52,218 nucleotides of DNA from Planctomycetia bacterium. GTDB taxonomy: Bacteria; Planctomycetota; Planctomycetia; Gemmatales; Gemmataceae. Position numbers and translations under genes: made by a program. The DNA lies in the NCBI GenBank assembly GCA_005799265.1, contig SYHD01000006.1:1-52218 (forward strand), in the 5' to 3' direction. Below the pieces are notes generated by a model that saw only the letters and a list, made by a program, of their open reading frames with translations, was not told where the DNA came from and searched no databases. Of the stretch, positions 15,863 through 22,996 are shown piece after piece. Position 1 is the first letter of the stretch. Each line of letters opens with the position of its first letter.

Positions 15863-16402
15863 TCACGACGTTGACGCCCCGCGTTCCCCCGCCTCCTTGC
15901 TCAGCCGCGTCAAAAAACGCAACATGTCGCGCGCGGAGATGATGCTCACCGGCTTGCCATTTTCCAGCACCGGCACGTGGCGATAGCCGCCCGCGTCCAT
16001 CTTTTGCAAGACGAAGTTCAACGTGTCCGTGGTCGACACCGATTCGGGCCGCGGCGTCATGAACTGCGTGATCGGCAGCTTGGCGAAGCCATTCTCCAGG
16101 CCGACAATTTTCTTGAGCAAATCACGTTCACTAAAGATGCCCGTCAGATTTCCTTCCGCGTCCACGACCAGAAGGGCGCCGACGTTCGAGGACGTCATCA
16201 GCGCCATCGCTTCGCCGATGCTCGCCTTCTCGCCGATGGTGACGGGAGGGTGCTGCTTGAGCGTCTTGACTTGATCGTACATAACGCTGCGTTCGACCTG
16301 GTTTTCCGGGTGAGGCAAATCGAACAAAGCGAACGGCTGCTTGCAATGCCTGCAAACTTCATCGCCCGGCAGATTCTTGTGACAGCAGGATGGACAGATC
16401 AT
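15863..16402 (-). CDS. CBS-pair protein with N-terminal zinc ribbon
   Basis: 179 residues starting at ATG 16402. Residues 1-25 form a zinc ribbon (CPSCCHKN ... CRHCK). Then come two CBS motifs: first around PVTIGEKASIGEAMALM with GIFSERDLL, second around SVSTTDTLNFVLQKM and ISARDMLRFL. CBS pairs bind adenosine nucleotides and regulate partner proteins. It is the last gene of a minus-strand group: CBS protein (19998), OFOR alpha (19419), OFOR beta (17502), this gene. Conserved placement would suggest nucleotide-dependent control of the oxidoreductase; this is inference. A longer start is encoded by repeat sequence and is rejected. Confidence 0.85.
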   Translation of the reverse strand: MICPSCCHKNLPGDEVCRHCKQPFALFDLPHPENQVERSVMYDQVKTLKQHPPVTIGEKASIGEAMALMTSSNVGALLVVDAEGNLTGIFSERDLLKKIVGLENGFAKLPITQFMTPRPESVSTTDTLNFVLQKMDAGGYRHVPVLENGKPVSIISARDMLRFLTRLSKEAGERGASTS

Positions 16403-16472
16403 GGTTGCCGCCTGCCGTTTGCGGCTTAGCATTCGTACTCAAGCACGCGAGCGCTAAGCTGCAGACGGCAAT
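16403..16472. repeat. CGAGCGCTAAGC-type hairpin repeat, abutting the CBS gene start
   Basis: TTGCCGCCTGCCGTTTGCGG with GCTTAGC on the left pairs imperfectly with GAGCGCTAAGCTGCAGACGG on the right. Related copies are at 19420-19482, 25386-25437, 29373-29435 and (partial) 31307-31328. Three of them lie directly upstream of minus-strand start codons. Confidence 0.75.
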
Positions 16473-16494
16473 ATCGTGGATCACCATTGATTTT

Positions 16495-17502
16495 CTACGC
16501 CACGAGCCATGATTCGTCACCCGTCAATAGCGATTCGAGATCGCGCGTCGGCCGGGCCTGGCGCGATTCGTCCAGCGACTGCTCAAAAGTCGGCCGTTGC
16601 ACGCTGCGGAAAACGCCGAGGCATTCGGGGAATGCCGGGCCAATCAGCCGGCTCAACAAGAACGCCAGCGTCGGCTCGGCGGCCTTTTCGTCGTGGATCA
16701 GCACGTCGTCGATCGTGATGCCATGCCCCAGCGTGACCACCTCCGGTTCAAAGCCGTTCAAGCGTAGGCCCTGATTACGATCTTTGCCGAAGAGGAGCGG
16801 ACGACCATGTTCAAGATAAATCAGGCTGTCGGCCTTGAGGGTCGTGTCGGTGGCGTACTCGAAAACGCCATCGTTGAAGATCTTGCAGTTCTGGTAGATC
16901 TCGACCAGCGCCGTCCCGCGGTGAGCGGCGGCGCGTTCGAGCATCTCACTCATGTGATTGACATCGACGTCGATCGTGCGCGCCACGAAACTCGCCTCGG
17001 CGGCGAGCGCCAACGAAAGCGGGCGCAGCGGCGTCTCGAAGGAGCCTTCCGGGCTCGTCTTGGTGCGCGTGCCCGGGCGCGACGTCGGCGACGCCTGCCC
17101 CTTGGAGAGTCCGAAGACCTCGTTGTTGATGAGGATGATCTTCAGATCGACATTGCGGCGCAGCGCATGGACGAGATGATTCGTCCCCGCCGAGAGCGCG
17201 TCGCCGTCACCGGTGACGATCCAGACCTGCACGTTTTCGTTGGCGAGCCGAAGCCCCGTCGCCAATGCTGGAGCTCGGCCCAGCGAGCCGTGGAATCCGA
17301 AAGTGTTTAGATAATGCGGCAGGCGGCCGGCGCAGCCGGGGCCGGCGATGAAGGCGAGGTTCGCACGCGGCACACCCAGGTCGGCGAGAACGATCTTCAT
17401 CTGGGCCAGGATGGAGAAATCGCCGCAACCAGGGCACCAACGTGCCTGCTGATCGGAGGTAAAATCTCCCGGTGTCAAGGTCGGCAACGGCGTCGTCGGC
17501 AT
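16495..17502 (-). CDS. 2-oxoacid:ferredoxin oxidoreductase, beta subunit (TPP-binding)
   Basis: 335 residues from ATG 17502. RWCPGCGDFSILAQMK near the N-terminus is the beta-subunit CPGCG motif, and the thiamine-pyrophosphate motif is VTGDGDALSAGTNHLVHALR through KIILINNEVFGLSKGQ. There is no ferredoxin domain. With the fused gamma-alpha subunit upstream (17557-19419) it forms the enzyme that oxidatively decarboxylates 2-oxoglutarate or pyruvate to acyl-CoA with reduction of ferredoxin in the cytoplasm, likely of the KorAB type given the two-subunit layout. The alpha gene ends 54 bases upstream, so they are co-transcribed. Confidence 0.93.
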   Translation of the reverse strand: MPTTPLPTLTPGDFTSDQQARWCPGCGDFSILAQMKIVLADLGVPRANLAFIAGPGCAGRLPHYLNTFGFHGSLGRAPALATGLRLANENVQVWIVTGDGDALSAGTNHLVHALRRNVDLKIILINNEVFGLSKGQASPTSRPGTRTKTSPEGSFETPLRPLSLALAAEASFVARTIDVDVNHMSEMLERAAAHRGTALVEIYQNCKIFNDGVFEYATDTTLKADSLIYLEHGRPLLFGKDRNQGLRLNGFEPEVVTLGHGITIDDVLIHDEKAAEPTLAFLLSRLIGPAFPECLGVFRSVQRPTFEQSLDESRQARPTRDLESLLTGDESWLVA

Positions 17503-17556
17503 AGGTATTATCTCGCAGTGCAAGCGTCGCGCTCGCACGGACCAAAGGCGCAATCG

Positions 17557-19419
17557 CTACGGAGCCAACATCGCCTCAATTTTTTGGGCGATTTCACTCA
17601 CGAGGAATGGCTGGCCTTGCACCTTGCTCAAGCTCATGGCATCAACCAGGTATTCCGCGCGCAGCAGGCGGCACAGTTGCCCGGCATTCAATTCTGGCAC
17701 AAGGATCTTGCGATACCGCTTGAGCACGGCGCCGGTGTTGCTCGGCAAGGGATGCAGATGCCGCACATGGGCGTGGGCGACGCGCAACCCCTTCGCCTGG
17801 CAGCGCGTCACCGCGTCGCGAATCGCCCCGAATGTACTGCCCCAACCGACGACGAGTAGGTCGCTGGAGATTGGGCCGTGCGTTTCCAGCGGCGCGATCT
17901 CATCAGCAAGACTCGCGATCTTGGCGGCGCGCAGGCGCACCATCTGTTCGTGGTTGAGCGCTTCGTAGCTGACGTTGCCCGTGCGCGCGTCCTTCTCAAG
18001 TCCGCCTGTGCGATGTTCCAGTCCCGGCGTCCCCGGAATTGCCCACGGCCTGACGCCGCGCTCGTCGCGCGACAACAATTCACCCTGAAGTGCCTGCGCC
18101 ATGTCGATGGCAGGCACCTCGGCCACGCTCGGCACGCGCCACGCCTCGGCGCTGTTTGCCAGGTGGACGTCCGACAGAATGATGACGGGAGACATGGACC
18201 GAACCGCCAAACGCACGGCTTCGAGCACGATCGCAAATCCGTCGGCGGGGGTCGCGGGCGCCAGGACGATGAGCGGGCTCTCGCCGTTGCGGCCGAAGAG
18301 CGCCTGCAAAAGATCGGCCTGTTCAGTCTTCGTCGGCATGCCGTTGCTCGGGCCGGCACGCTGCACGTCGATGACGATGCAAGGAAGTTCGCTCATGACC
18401 GCCAGGCCGAGAGCTTCCGATTGCAATACCAGGCCAGGCCCGCTCGTCGCCGTCGCGCCGAGCGCGCCGCCAAATGCGGCGCCGATGGCAAGATTAAGTG
18501 CGGCGCTGTCGTCCTCGGCCTGGACGACCTTGACGTTGGCGTGCGGCTTATCGAAAAGCTCATGAAGCAACTCGCTCGCCGGCGGCGCGGGGAACCCGGC
18601 GAAGATCAGCGGCCGCGGCGATTGCTCCGCGGCAGCGGCGATTCCGAGAGCAAGGGATTCAATTCCCGTTACGCTTCGATAACGCCCGGCCGGCAGCGCG
18701 GCCTTGGCGATGCGGTAGCGCGTCGGCAGTTGACCGCTCATCTCGCCGTAGTGATAGCCGGCCTTGAGCGTGCGCGTGTTGGCCTCGATCATCGCGGGAT
18801 TCTTGACGTAGGTCTCGCGAATCCACTTGAGCGTCGGTTCGAGCGGGCGATCGTAGAGCCAACAGACGATGCCGAGGGGGAAAAAATCCTTGCAGCGATT
18901 CGCCTCGCGCGGGATGAGATTGACCGGGGCAACGGCTGCGAGACTGAATTGCGTCATCGTCGCCGCGAGCAGGCGATAAGCTCCAAGCGAGCCGTCCTGA
19001 AGCGGATTGGACCTATAGCCTGCCTTCGCGAGTTCGTCCGGCGTGAAGGCATCGGCGTTGGCGATGAGGATGCCGCCCGGTTCGAGATCGTTCAGGTTGG
19101 CGCGCAGCGACGCGGGATTCATGACGACGAGCGTGTGCAGAACGTCGCCCGGCGTGTGGATCGGCTGCGAACTGACATGAACCTGGAAGCCGCACGCGCC
19201 GGCGAGGGTGCCGGCCGGCGCGCGGATCTCGGCCGGCAGATCGGGGAGCGTGAAGACCGCGTTGCCGTGGCTGGCCGAGCCGCTTGTGAACTGGGCGCCG
19301 ACGAGTTGCATGCCGTCGCTGGCATCGCCGGCAAAACGCACCACAGCCGCGGCGAGATCCTCGATCTTGGCTCGCGCGGAAGGCGTTGGTCCGGAGCTGG
19401 AAGGGACGACTGCCATCAT
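17557..19419 (-). CDS. 2-oxoacid:ferredoxin oxidoreductase, fused gamma-alpha subunit
   Basis: 620 residues. The N-terminal ~190 residues are the gamma domain (VVRFAGDASDGMQLVGAQF, and the FQVHVSSQP stretch). The rest is the alpha (pyrimidine-binding) domain, with GNEA-type core replaced by ATSGPGLVLQSEALGLAVM and DVQRAGPSNGMPTKTEQADL, both hallmarks of KorA/PorA alpha subunits. Two adjacent ATGs at 19419 and 19416 are possible; the frame upstream of them is repeat-derived. It precedes the beta subunit in an operon-like order. Substrate (2-oxoglutarate versus pyruvate) is not certain; the gamma-alpha fusion favours the 2-oxoglutarate type. Confidence 0.92.
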   Translation of the reverse strand: MMAVVPSSSGPTPSARAKIEDLAAAVVRFAGDASDGMQLVGAQFTSGSASHGNAVFTLPDLPAEIRAPAGTLAGACGFQVHVSSQPIHTPGDVLHTLVVMNPASLRANLNDLEPGGILIANADAFTPDELAKAGYRSNPLQDGSLGAYRLLAATMTQFSLAAVAPVNLIPREANRCKDFFPLGIVCWLYDRPLEPTLKWIRETYVKNPAMIEANTRTLKAGYHYGEMSGQLPTRYRIAKAALPAGRYRSVTGIESLALGIAAAAEQSPRPLIFAGFPAPPASELLHELFDKPHANVKVVQAEDDSAALNLAIGAAFGGALGATATSGPGLVLQSEALGLAVMSELPCIVIDVQRAGPSNGMPTKTEQADLLQALFGRNGESPLIVLAPATPADGFAIVLEAVRLAVRSMSPVIILSDVHLANSAEAWRVPSVAEVPAIDMAQALQGELLSRDERGVRPWAIPGTPGLEHRTGGLEKDARTGNVSYEALNHEQMVRLRAAKIASLADEIAPLETHGPISSDLLVVGWGSTFGAIRDAVTRCQAKGLRVAHAHVRHLHPLPSNTGAVLKRYRKILVPELNAGQLCRLLRAEYLVDAMSLSKVQGQPFLVSEIAQKIEAMLAP

Positions 19420-19482
19420 GTTGCCATTTGCCGCTTGCGGGTTAGCGTTCGCAATCGAGCAGGTGAGCGCTAAACTCAAAGC
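19420..19482. repeat. CGCTAA(G/C)CCGCAAGCGG repeat, upstream of the OFOR alpha start
   Basis: Reads TTGCCGCTTGCGGGTTAGCG then GAGCGCTAAACTC on the plus strand, matching the core of the copies at 16403, 25386 and 29373. It directly precedes the OFOR alpha ATG and would otherwise be read as an N-terminal extension. Confidence 0.65.
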
Positions 19483-19533
19483 GGGAATACGGGGAAATCA
19501 TTTGCAACACATCGGAAATAAATCGACGAGGCG

Positions 19534-19998
19534 CTAGGCGCCTTCGCGCTTGGGCTGGTAGGGCTGGGAATGAGGCGGCAGATTGTAAACCATCGTGGGA
19601 AAGTGTTCGACGAGGTAATGCACGATTCGCTTCACCGACAGGATTCCCACCGGCTTGTCATCGATCACCACGGGCAAATGTCGATAGCCTCCTTTTTGCA
19701 TGTACCTGATCGCGCAACTGATCGAGTCCTTCGGATGCACCGACACCGGGTCGGGCGTCATGCACTCCTCAATCGGCGTCGTCACCGGCAATCCTTGCGC
19801 GAGAACGCGCCGCAATAGATCGCGTTCCGTGAAGATGCCGACGATACGCCGCTGTTCGCAGACCAGCACGCAGCCGACCTTCTTCTCGCGCATCAGCTTG
19901 ACGGCGTCCGCAACCGGCTGGCCGCGCTGAACGATCAAGGGCTGTGACGGATACAGCCGCGATACCGTTTCGCCTTTGAGATTGCGTGCAAGGTCCAT
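19534..19998 (-). CDS. CBS-pair domain protein
   Basis: 154 residues from ATG 19998, composed almost only of two CBS motifs: LIVQRGQPVADAVKLMREKK with VGIFTERDLLRRVL, and VSVHPKDSISCAIRYMQKGG with VGILSVKRIVHYL. There is no zinc ribbon, unlike the CBS protein at the other end of the OFOR genes, but the segment GGYRHLPVV is nearly shared, so the two are related. It heads the minus-strand group CBS, OFOR alpha, OFOR beta, CBS. The role is probably nucleotide sensing linked to OFOR or energy status; that is inference from position. Confidence 0.85.
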   Translation of the reverse strand: MDLARNLKGETVSRLYPSQPLIVQRGQPVADAVKLMREKKVGCVLVCEQRRIVGIFTERDLLRRVLAQGLPVTTPIEECMTPDPVSVHPKDSISCAIRYMQKGGYRHLPVVIDDKPVGILSVKRIVHYLVEHFPTMVYNLPPHSQPYQPKREGA

Positions 19999-20035
19999 AT
20001 CGTCTCTCGCTTTCCCTTGACGTTCTAGTAATTCC

Positions 20036-20116
20036 GACCACGGACAGCGAGGGCAAGGGATTGCCACAAAGCGTCGGCATGTGGTACAACAATAAAAACA
20101 ATCTCGATCCGTGGTC
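20036..20116. repeat. Inverted repeat GACCACGGAC / TCCGTGGTC
   Basis: GACCACGGAC at 20036-20045 is complementary to TCCGTGGTC at 20108-20116. The same arms in opposite order flank 22521-22581. It occupies the divergent gap between the CBS gene (start 19998) and the methyltransferase (start 20133), where promoters for both must also lie. Confidence 0.6.
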
Positions 20117-20132
20117 TATTGCCGCAACCGCC

Positions 20133-20825
20133 ATGAGCGAGCGCACCTTCACTCCGCCGCCCCCGGAAGTTGTCCTCGACAAGCTCGGGCCTATTCTGCG
20201 CGAGACGGTCATCGTCGAAAGGCGCACCTTCCTGATCGATCATCCCGGCGAATCGGATCGGCTCGCAAAACACCCGGCCGTGCGCGCGGCGTTCGAGCGC
20301 GACGCGTACATGCCATACTGGGCCGACCTGTGGCCCGCGGCGCGCATGCTCGCCAAGGCCATCCTGCGCGAAACGTGGACGCCTGGGACCGAGGCGATTG
20401 AGTTGGGCTGCGGTCTGGGCTTGCCCGGTATCGTTGCCCTGTCAATGGGGCTGCGCGTGACCTTCAGCGATTATGACGCCTGTGCGTTGCGCTTCGCCGC
20501 CGATAACGCTCGGCTCAATGGCTGCGCCGGCTTTCACACGTTGCAACGAGATTGGCGCGCGCCGCCGGACGATTTGAAAGTGCCGGTGCTACTGGCTGCC
20601 GATCTCGTGTACGAACTGCGCAACGTCGCGCCGCTCGTCGCGTGCATCAAGAAGCTACTCGCTCCGGGCGGGCTGTGCTTGTTGACCGATGTCGATCGGA
20701 TTCCGTCCGCTGCGCTCAAGGAACTCCTGCAAGCTGAGGGATTGCCGTACACGACGAAGCTGATGCGCGCCGGCGAACCTGGCGGCCTGCGCGTGAAGGG
20801 GACGCTGTATCGCATAACGCTGTGA
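20133..20825 (+). CDS. Class I SAM-dependent methyltransferase (METTL16B/METTL21-like)
   Basis: 230 residues from ATG 20133. The SAM-binding motif I is EAIELGCGLGLPGIVALS (residues 88-105), preceded by MPYWADLWPAARMLA, which is typical of the lysine/nicotinamide methyltransferase-like group (PF10294-type). Motif II-like FSDYD and motif IV-like LAADLVYE follow. Substrate could be a protein or small molecule. An ATG at 20079 is also in frame but falls in repeat-flanked sequence. Gene stands alone on the plus strand, divergent from the CBS/OFOR group. Confidence 0.82.
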   Translation: MSERTFTPPPPEVVLDKLGPILRETVIVERRTFLIDHPGESDRLAKHPAVRAAFERDAYMPYWADLWPAARMLAKAILRETWTPGTEAIELGCGLGLPGIVALSMGLRVTFSDYDACALRFAADNARLNGCAGFHTLQRDWRAPPDDLKVPVLLAADLVYELRNVAPLVACIKKLLAPGGLCLLTDVDRIPSAALKELLQAEGLPYTTKLMRAGEPGGLRVKGTLYRITL

Positions 20826-20958: not shown

Positions 20959-21468
20959 ATGATCGTAATCAAGCAAATGCAATCTCTTGCCGTGGTCATG
21001 GTTCTCGGCACTTCGTTTGGCCTTGCCCAAGAGAAGATGGAAGTGGTCCCGGTCAAATACGAAGGCCTCAAGCAAGAGATCCAGAAACATCGCGGCAAGG
21101 TCGTTGTCGTCGATTTCTGGTCGACGAGCTGTCCCCCTTGTATGAAGGCTTTCCCTGATTTCATCGCAATGCAGAAGCGGCACGCCGACAAGGGGATGGT
21201 TCTCATTACTGTCTCTTTCAACGAATTGGAAGACATGAACTTGGCAGTCAAGTTCATCAATCGACACCCGGGCCCGGTGCGCCACCTGTTGCTGGACGAG
21301 CCTACCGAGTTGAAAGAAAAGAAATTTGATTACGTGGGCCTGCCCTTCTATTATGTTTTCGACCGCCAGGGCAGATGGGTGCGCTTCCGCGCGGCCGACG
21401 CCAAGGACAACAAGGTCGATTACGCTCATCTGGAGCAAGTCGTCGTCAAGATGCTTGGCGAGAAATAA
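20959..21468 (+). CDS. Exported thioredoxin-like protein (TlpA/ResA type, CPPC)
   Basis: 169 residues starting at ATG 20959 with AAAGGA a few bases upstream and a signal peptide (MIVIKQMQSLAVVMVLGTSF). The thioredoxin fold has its active site as FWSTSCPPC, followed by MKAFPDFIAMQ, and a cis-Pro region near YVGLPFYYVFDRQGRW. It should act as a thiol:disulfide oxidoreductase outside the cytoplasm. A tandem paralogue starts 61 bases downstream and aligns closely (both have VKYxGLKQE and HRGKVxVVDFWS) but carries TGA in place of the first active-site Cys. The pair looks like a local duplication followed by a Cys/Sec exchange. Confidence 0.9.
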   Translation: MIVIKQMQSLAVVMVLGTSFGLAQEKMEVVPVKYEGLKQEIQKHRGKVVVVDFWSTSCPPCMKAFPDFIAMQKRHADKGMVLITVSFNELEDMNLAVKFINRHPGPVRHLLLDEPTELKEKKFDYVGLPFYYVFDRQGRWVRFRAADAKDNKVDYAHLEQVVVKMLGEK

Positions 21469-21529: not shown

Positions 21530-22036
21530 ATGACACGCGCGCTCGTTTCCCTCGGGCTGATCACGACTCTTTGCACGGCGATGAGCCCGGCGCAGGACAA
21601 GCCCATCACGATGGTTGCGGTAAAGTATGATGGCCTGAAGCAGGAAGTGCTCAAGCACCGCGGCAAAGTGCTGGTCGTGGATTTCTGGTCCTTTGACTGA
21701 GGGCCGTGCAAATCCAACTTCCCGCATCTGGTCGAGATGCACCGGAAGAACTCCCATCGGGGCCTGGCCGTCGTCGCTGTTTCGCTCGATGACGAGCAGG
21801 CCAAGGTGAACGAAGGGAACAAGTTCTTGCAAGAAAAGAAATCTCCGTTCGTCAATCTGCTGCTCGATGAGCCGCATGCGGTCAGAGCGGATAAGCTGGG
21901 CTTCAACTTCGCGCCGTGCTACTTCGTATTCGATCGGCAGGGCAGATGGGTTCGCCTGCGCGGCGACGACTACGATCCGGCTGAACTCCCCAAGGAACTC
22001 GACAAAGTCATCTTGCGCATGCTTGACGAGAAATAA
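21530..22036 (+). CDS. Candidate selenoprotein: thioredoxin-like protein with U-G-P-C active site
   Basis: 168 residues when the TGA at 21698-21700 is read through. It starts at ATG 21530 with a signal peptide (MTRALVSLGLITTLCTAMSP). Residue 57 is the TGA: FWSFD-U-GPCKSNFPHL, exactly where TlpA-type thioredoxins have the first Cys of WCxxC (the upstream paralogue has FWSTSCPPC). The rest is an intact thioredoxin fold (FVNLLLDEPHAV, then FAPCYFVFDRQGRWVRLR). A hairpin with a GGTCG loop lies 29 bases after the TGA. I read TGA as selenocysteine forming a Sec-x-x-Cys redox pair. The stop codon overlaps the next gene's ATG (TAATG), so continued translation past the TGA also couples to the downstream gene. 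Confidence 0.85.
21718..21748 (+). promoter_or_regulatory. Putative SECIS hairpin for the UGA at 21698
   Basis: Upper stem GCATCT (21724-21729) with AGATGC (21735-21740), apical loop GGTCG (21730-21734); lower stem CTTCC (21718-21722) with GGAAG (21744-21748) across a small internal loop. The loop starts 29 bases after UGA and begins GGU, like classical bacterial SECIS loops. Confidence 0.78.
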
Positions 22037-22585: not shown

Positions 22586-22996
22586 ATGTCCTGCCACATC
22601 TGCCAAGCCGAAGCCGTATCGCGCTGCTACACCTGCGGCGAGTTGGTGTGCGCGCAGCATAGCCAGGGCAAGACGTGTTCGCGCTGCACGACGGCGATCG
22701 CTGAGGGGGATCCGCGTGGCGATCGCATCTCCGCGACGCCGATGGAGGCGAAGGCCAACCATGGCTGGTGGCGGCCGCAGCAAGCCGACGAGTATTTGCC
22801 GCCGGCGTGCTATGCGTGCCAGGGTCTGGCGCGCGGCGTGTGCAGAAACTGCGCCAGCCGATATTGCGCTGAACACGCCGGAGCGAACGGCCTGTGTAAG
22901 CAGTGCGGCCAATCGGCGATGCTGGGCGTGTACGTTCTGGCGGGCCTCGCGGCGGTTGTCATGGTGATCCTGGTTGTGAACTGGCTATTTGGTTGA
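22586..22996 (+). CDS. Small membrane protein with double B-box-like zinc fingers
   Basis: 136 residues from ATG 22586. Two Cys/His clusters, CHICQAEAVSRCYTCGELVC then CSRC, and CYACQGLARGVCRNCASRYC then CKQC, look like B-box-type zinc fingers. The last ~23 residues are a membrane segment (MLGVYVLAGLAAVVMVILVV). It would sit at the inner membrane with zinc fingers in the cytoplasm. Planctomycetes encode many such proteins of unknown function. Its last 12 bases overlap the convergent LOG gene on the other strand. Confidence 0.75.
   Translation: MSCHICQAEAVSRCYTCGELVCAQHSQGKTCSRCTTAIAEGDPRGDRISATPMEAKANHGWWRPQQADEYLPPACYACQGLARGVCRNCASRYCAEHAGANGLCKQCGQSAMLGVYVLAGLAAVVMVILVVNWLFG

Follow-up and report, generated by a model that had tools for sequence, protein, structure and literature searches.

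The window, i.e. the whole 52,218-nucleotide stretch of planctomycete DNA that we analysed, contains a thioredoxin-like gene of the ResA/TlpA/AhpC-TSA type (21530..22036, + strand) which, with a probability that we put at about 0.95, encodes a selenoprotein. The gene is a single frame of 168 codons plus TAA, and its sole internal stop is a TGA at codon 57 (21698..21700, +), predicted to specify selenocysteine (Sec) as the first residue of a UxxC motif. The active site reads FWSFD-U-GPC, where the TGC codon at 21707..21709 (+) encodes Cys60, the expected resolving residue of the UxxC, which is conserved among homologues. This is what the original prediction had described, i.e. one TGA at the first Cys of a CxxC motif followed by intact sequence and a TAATG overlap: the frame runs on to the TAA at 22034-22036, which overlaps the following ATG at 22036 by one base. 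It had also been said that a gene caller would split the gene, and a plain open-reading-frame list indeed does so, giving a 99-aa ATG-started frame at 21737-22036. By eye, the hydrophobic N-terminus of the product reads as a signal peptide.

Protein family

The protein scored over the Pfam gathering cut-offs of AhpC-TSA (44.1 bits), Thioredoxin_8 (42.4), Redoxin (36.6) and Thioredoxin (26.2), and its best matches in a PDB profile search were the DsbE-like 3gl3, followed by 3kcm and ResA. The ResA, DsbE and TlpA proteins (PDB 3gl3, 1st9, 1jfu) share its redox motif and are among the best structure-profile matches; however, they have Cys where the window protein has Sec, and its NCBIfam scores are far below the cut-offs for ResA (NF002854, 41.2 bits against 170) and DsbE (TIGR00385, 40.5 against 123.15). 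The model that is closest by name, the ResA-like selenoprotein NF041054 (WAxxUGC), aligns with residues 4-144 (E 2.1e-08), but at 33.8 bits against a cut-off of 300; in addition, the window protein has UxxC and not UGC, and 168 residues against the 354 positions of the model. A scan of five proteins of the family (four Sec, one Cys) placed none of them over any NCBIfam family cut-off. The alignment of the Sec family has an invariant proline at 129, presumably where the thioredoxin cis-proline is expected. As the AlphaFold model was built from only two sequences and has a mean pLDDT of 38.4, the fold and the redox partner are assigned from sequence families only. The product appears to be a secreted-looking thiol:disulfide oxidoreductase similar to ResA/TlpA, and we regard a ResA-like role as reasonably likely.

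Conservation of the TGA codon

A search of 59 genomes (the window's own included) with the read-through protein returned at least 23 homologues with one internal TGA, and in all 23 of those listed, four of them divergent, the TGA takes the place of the first active-site Cys. The full set of 34 Sec genes from 33 genomes consists of 30 loci with the hairpin described below, which were fetched via the hairpin itself, and the four divergent ones. The TGA of all 34 falls in one alignment column. In the 21 Cys-form rows, which are those in the fetched loci and so a subset of the Cys homologues from the protein search, this column holds TGC (14), TGT (6) and, in a decayed third copy, AAT (1); the residue at this position is therefore Cys or U, as proposed beforehand, in every Sec row and in 20 of the 21 Cys-form rows. 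Two distant Cys homologues (L039 and L050) were left out of these counts, and eight near-copies were thinned in the reduced alignment sets. Identity to the window protein goes down to 33% (17 aligned), and to 29% for genomes G012 and G030, so the TGA homologues are not recent copies of one mutation. Further out, a scan of named genomes gave 80 distant homologues with 25-39% identity in the best segment, Pirellulaceae coming first, and distant.

These comparisons bear directly on whether the TGA stems from faulty sequencing or from a recent nonsense mutation that has turned a Cys gene into a pseudogene, which a draft assembly of 372 contigs and an adjoining, working-looking Cys copy might lead one to suspect. 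The same column holds TGA in 34 genes from 33 independent genomes, the protein after the TGA is conserved, and the frame downstream is open for 98-108 codons from the His codon of the hairpin at 30/30 hairpin loci, i.e. it meets no stop shortly after the TGA. We therefore regard error or decay as refuted for practical purposes.

Beside the invariant proline some rows have another redox Cys, which was considered as a feature specific to the Sec form and was dropped: it occurs in 11/34 Sec and 3/21 Cys-form rows, and over independent pairs it has no association with Sec (median p 1, few pairs).

A nearly invariant SECIS hairpin

The apical hairpin of a bacterial SECIS element is present at 21724..21740 (+), with a 6-bp stem and the loop GGUCG (21730-21734), and 29 bases separate the TGA from the loop. 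The published model of the bacterial SECIS (PMC13188914, section 5) has a stem of 4-16 bp, a loop of 3-9 nt with G in its first two places, a spacing of 16-37 nt and a minimum free energy (MFE) of at most -7.5. The window hairpin (6 bp, GGUCG, 29 nt, apical MFE -8.4) satisfies every constraint, in agreement with the earlier claim of a match in spacing and loop; in two divergent relatives the apical hairpin has MFEs of -4.9 and -4.6, which alone fall short of -7.5. The original prediction had proposed a two-part hairpin. Its apical part and the 29-base spacing stood, and the lower stem does form in the window's own fold (extended hairpin, 21718..21748, +), but conservation of that lower stem did not hold up, as its 4-pair helix was paired in 69.6% of cells, against 98.6% for the upper helix, among 23 relatives.

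The fold energy of the window hairpin alone is not striking (z -1.62, with 11/200 shuffles folding equally well) and is weak evidence. Stem pairing in one gene is also weak evidence, because it comes rather readily with the peptide PHLVEMH: when synonymous codons were drawn at random for it, 27,531 of 200,000 draws gave 6/6 pairs as well. The case against chance is instead comparative, and lies in the TGA column of the 23 listed homologues and in the TGA that accompanies every fetched hairpin site. The hairpin GCATCTGGTNNAGATGCA was found at 31 sites in 29 of the 102 genomes of the order, with 0 matches for the reversed control. All 30 sites that were fetched (the second site of G110 was left out) had an in-frame TGA 9-10 codons upstream and an open frame after it, and G017 keeps the hairpin with one extra codon between the two. 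Only three loop types, GGTCG, GGTTC and GGTAC, occur across the 31 sites. Outside the order 3 of 391 other genomes matched (sample 392, own included; reversed control 1), none of the three matches being in a thioredoxin frame with a TGA. Within its own genome the window site is the sole exact hairpin among 25 places with up to two mismatches (reversed control 15).

As genes fetched by the hairpin would make the argument circular, conservation of codons was assessed with the 23 genes that the protein search alone had found. At the six hairpin columns codon identity was 0.81, versus 0.43 at 57 other columns; the Leu at +11 is CTG in 22/23 (identity 0.91), compared with 0.19-0.35 at other Leu columns, and the Val codon of the loop varies (0.45). 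Most hairpin codons are thus nearly fixed and the SECIS is nearly invariant. The exact hairpin is present in 19/23 protein-found Sec genes, and all six stem pairs form in 32/34 Sec genes (21/23 of the protein-found ones) and in 0/21 Cys-form genes. In two genomes G-C has been replaced by C-G with the stem preserved, and G012 has the closing pair C-GTT-G where other genes have G-GTT-C. Covariation support for the stem is thin: it consists of one pair with two both-sided cells (0/500 shuffles reach the cells, 90/500 reach the pair count), and a slide by +2 columns gives an equal covariation score (0.058).

Selenocysteine machinery

The window's genome, a 6.47-Mb draft with a completeness of 87%, contains tRNA-Sec (71.8 bits versus a cut-off of 47; ARAGORN tRNA-SeC(tca)) and selA (8.4e-171), selB and selD, all of them scoring above the respective curated cut-off, so that every one of the four genes for which a search had been suggested, selA, selB, selC and selD, is present. 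The selD of this genome (L019 1393-3717, contig C302) forms the C-terminal part of a 774-residue frame, the N-terminal half of which has by eye the look of an NADH dehydrogenase-type oxidoreductase, and the loop of this SelD reads RCGGCG, i.e. Cys and not Sec. According to PMC4807772, planctomycetes have selenoproteins and Sec machinery, and Gemmata obscuriglobus has the machinery. Since selA (E up to 1e-60) is found in 90/102 genomes of the order, near-universal use of Sec looks like the rule there. Among the 29 hairpin-bearing genomes 25 have selA, and three of the other four have selB over cut-off; G107 (88% complete) carries the gene and has no selA, selB or tRNA-Sec over cut-off.

If the UGA simply terminated translation, it would leave a 56-residue peptide and a C-terminal part restarted at ATG 21737, for which the 99-aa frame does exist. 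The joined active site would then be missing from either piece and the conserved Cys60 would be in neither; moreover, synonymous sites of the hairpin are conserved, and genes for Sec-tRNA are present in the genome. We therefore consider termination as the normal outcome very unlikely, although it may compete with Sec insertion under selenium shortage. Decoding of the UGA as tryptophan, or read-through of a general kind, would account for the open frame alone. However, the 21 Cys-form rows contain no Trp at this column, two genes nearby (those for the methyltransferase and the small Cys-rich protein described below) end in TGA, and the Sec machinery is present, all of which makes such decoding extremely improbable. 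The selenoprotein reading is upheld: the three kinds of result named in advance as speaking against it, i.e. a genome lacking selB or selC, an unrelated residue in homologues, and disruption of the frame beyond the TGA in variants, did not appear.

The cysteine twin and the gene neighbourhood

A Cys-containing tandem paralogue with the motif FWSTSCPPC lies at 20959..21468 (+). It is 42% identical to the Sec gene, lacks the hairpin (3/6 stem pairs) and has an N-terminus that is, by eye, signal peptide-like; with its end at 21468 there are 61 bases between the genes, exactly as first described. The neighbouring Cys/Sec pair pointed out in the original prediction is real and genus-wide, with the Cys twin followed by the Sec twin in 5/7 genomes of the genus, the exceptions being G006, with the Sec form only, and G004 (74% complete), with the Cys form only. 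At this locus a lone Cys form is found in G032 and G028. Other arrangements were also seen: G009 has a third tandem copy (L029 2688-3161) in which the frame is intact and both active-site cysteines are lost (WNTWNVPAIH), and in G026 (L034 72-1670) thioredoxin-like genes occur three times in tandem, where the contig start cuts into the first and the third is the Sec form.

In Methanococcus maripaludis, Sec and Cys isoenzymes are described within one genome, with the Cys set serving when selenium is depleted (PMC11097638). As at the window locus, the same enzymes occur there in both forms in one genome; however, those pairs are archaeal and mostly belong to energy metabolism, not to the thioredoxins, whereas the window pair is known from genes alone. 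By this analogy the Cys twin may serve the same function without selenium, at a lower rate or under selenium shortage, a division of labour that we put forward tentatively.

The stop of the Sec gene is overlapped by a flavin-reductase-like gene (PF01613; 22036..22521, +), and a methyltransferase gene (PF10294, Methyltransf_16; 20130..20825, +) precedes the Cys twin. A small Cys-rich protein (22589..22996, +), with a C-terminus that is hydrophobic by eye and no Pfam match, is kept after the flavin reductase in several relatives. Counting the window and 33 further Sec loci, many of which end at contig ends or have short flanks, a co-directional flavin reductase occurs at a distance of up to 1.5 kb in 23/34, a Methyltransf_16 gene in 20/34 and both in 18/34; among the loci listed, the order starts with the methyltransferase and ends with the reductase. 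These co-oriented genes suggest joint expression. By eye, the N-terminus of the flavin reductase has no signal-like sequence, which gives no reason to assume that the two proteins interact directly across the membrane.

Further upstream, the window contains a two-domain 2-oxoacid:ferredoxin oxidoreductase subunit (POR + POR_N) and a TPP subunit (15863-20067), flanked by a pair of CBS-like genes (one recognised by Pfam and the other by eye). G003 and G005 have this block upstream of their thioredoxin locus, and G002 has part of it.

Exchange of selenocysteine and cysteine

On a tree of 55 proteins the Sec and Cys forms interleave, and a single Sec clade is rejected (p-AU 4.5e-10; the AU tests were performed after the tree had been seen, and the truncated third copy of G026 was left out of trees and codon counts). 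The best tree has 14 Sec/Cys changes, at least four of them forced by starred branches, and fits either 13 losses or 17 gains, i.e. the direction is not fixed. The Cys partners (nine rows including the lone copy of G004) do not form one clade either (p-AU 5e-4; G009_Cys2 and G023_Cys were left out of this second tree), and each of three sets of rows, those from the genus, from G026 and from G084, groups together (100/100, 96/91 and 98/91). From these separate groupings, Sec/Cys tandem twins seem to have arisen at least three times, unless gene conversion mimics that pattern. The two copies of G009 are non-sisters on the best tree, and their sisterhood is compatible with the data (p 0.22).

Remnants of the SECIS in Cys genes were sought and rejected: the best candidate (G033) has 5/6 pairs, which occur at 2.8% of all offsets, and as none of the 21 Cys-form genes keeps the full stem there is no case for a fossil SECIS.

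Two histories can be set against each other. In the first, Sec is ancestral in the order with one near-fixed SECIS, many lineages have reverted to Cys, and the twins are a pair suited to selenium availability. The near-fixed hairpin argues for one Sec origin and many reversions, and the absence of a SECIS remnant in the Cys genes examined gives no help to the reversion case; taken as a whole we find this history rather doubtful. In the second, TGA and hairpin were gained or passed on several times, by transfer or by tandem gene conversion, which side-by-side copies favour. The number of changes on the best tree, four of them forced and their direction open, and the lack of a clear remnant in the Cys genes examined are consistent with this, whereas repeated invention of a near-identical 17-base hairpin, found in 30/34 Sec genes, is unlikely; this count is to be read with the caveat that those 30 were fetched by the hairpin, which is exact in 19/23 protein-found genes. 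Multiple gain is thus a possibility to be taken seriously, at less than even odds.

Discussion

The mechanism that we propose begins with SelB, which together with Sec-tRNA(Sec) would bind the GGUCG-loop hairpin 29 bases downstream, so that the UGA at 21698-21700 is decoded as selenocysteine. The product would then be exported and act as a thioredoxin-fold thiol:disulfide oxidoreductase of the ResA/TlpA/DsbE kind, the family being indicated by profile and the export by the N-terminus. Given the UxxC motif and what is known of how thioredoxins react, Sec57 is expected either to attack a disulfide of the substrate or to become oxidised; reaction with Cys60 would then yield a Sec57-Cys60 selenenylsulfide, to be reduced again by a partner.

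The exchange of Cys for Sec in thioredoxin folds, which the original prediction took as established, is of a known kind. PMC13188914 tabulates UxxC thioredoxin-like selenoproteins, e.g. a Prx-like thiol:disulfide oxidoreductase (PF00578), a thiol-disulfide isomerase-like protein (cd02966) and a redoxin family protein (PF08534), and compared by description these share with the window protein the thioredoxin type, Sec for the first Cys, a downstream SECIS and Cys homologues. Neither 'planctomycet' nor 'gemmat' occurs in the main text of that paper, and in the open-licence literature no paper on this Sec family was recognised by title or abstract start. We therefore describe a conserved Sec family that is newly recorded, within the known kind of UxxC thioredoxin-like selenoproteins. 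It is well supported as a selenoprotein family, four Sec members of which fall under every NCBIfam cut-off, and the window's gene is split in a plain open-reading-frame list. Less ordinary are its rigid SECIS and the frequent exchange of Sec and Cys with tandem twins.

Change from Sec to Cys in bacteria is described as rare and as mostly affecting FdhA and SelD (PMC13188914, section 10), and PMC1794560 counts 15 Sec-to-Cys events in four families. An ancestral Sec with many reversions in this order would, if true, contradict that rarity, and the twins would then be a selenium-availability pair, in which the Sec enzyme serves when selenium is present and the Cys twin in its absence. With Sec and Cys forms side by side in one genome, and one replacing the other at this locus in relatives, the family lends itself naturally to asking why selenocysteine is retained or lost in bacteria, and how strictly SelB reads the SECIS.
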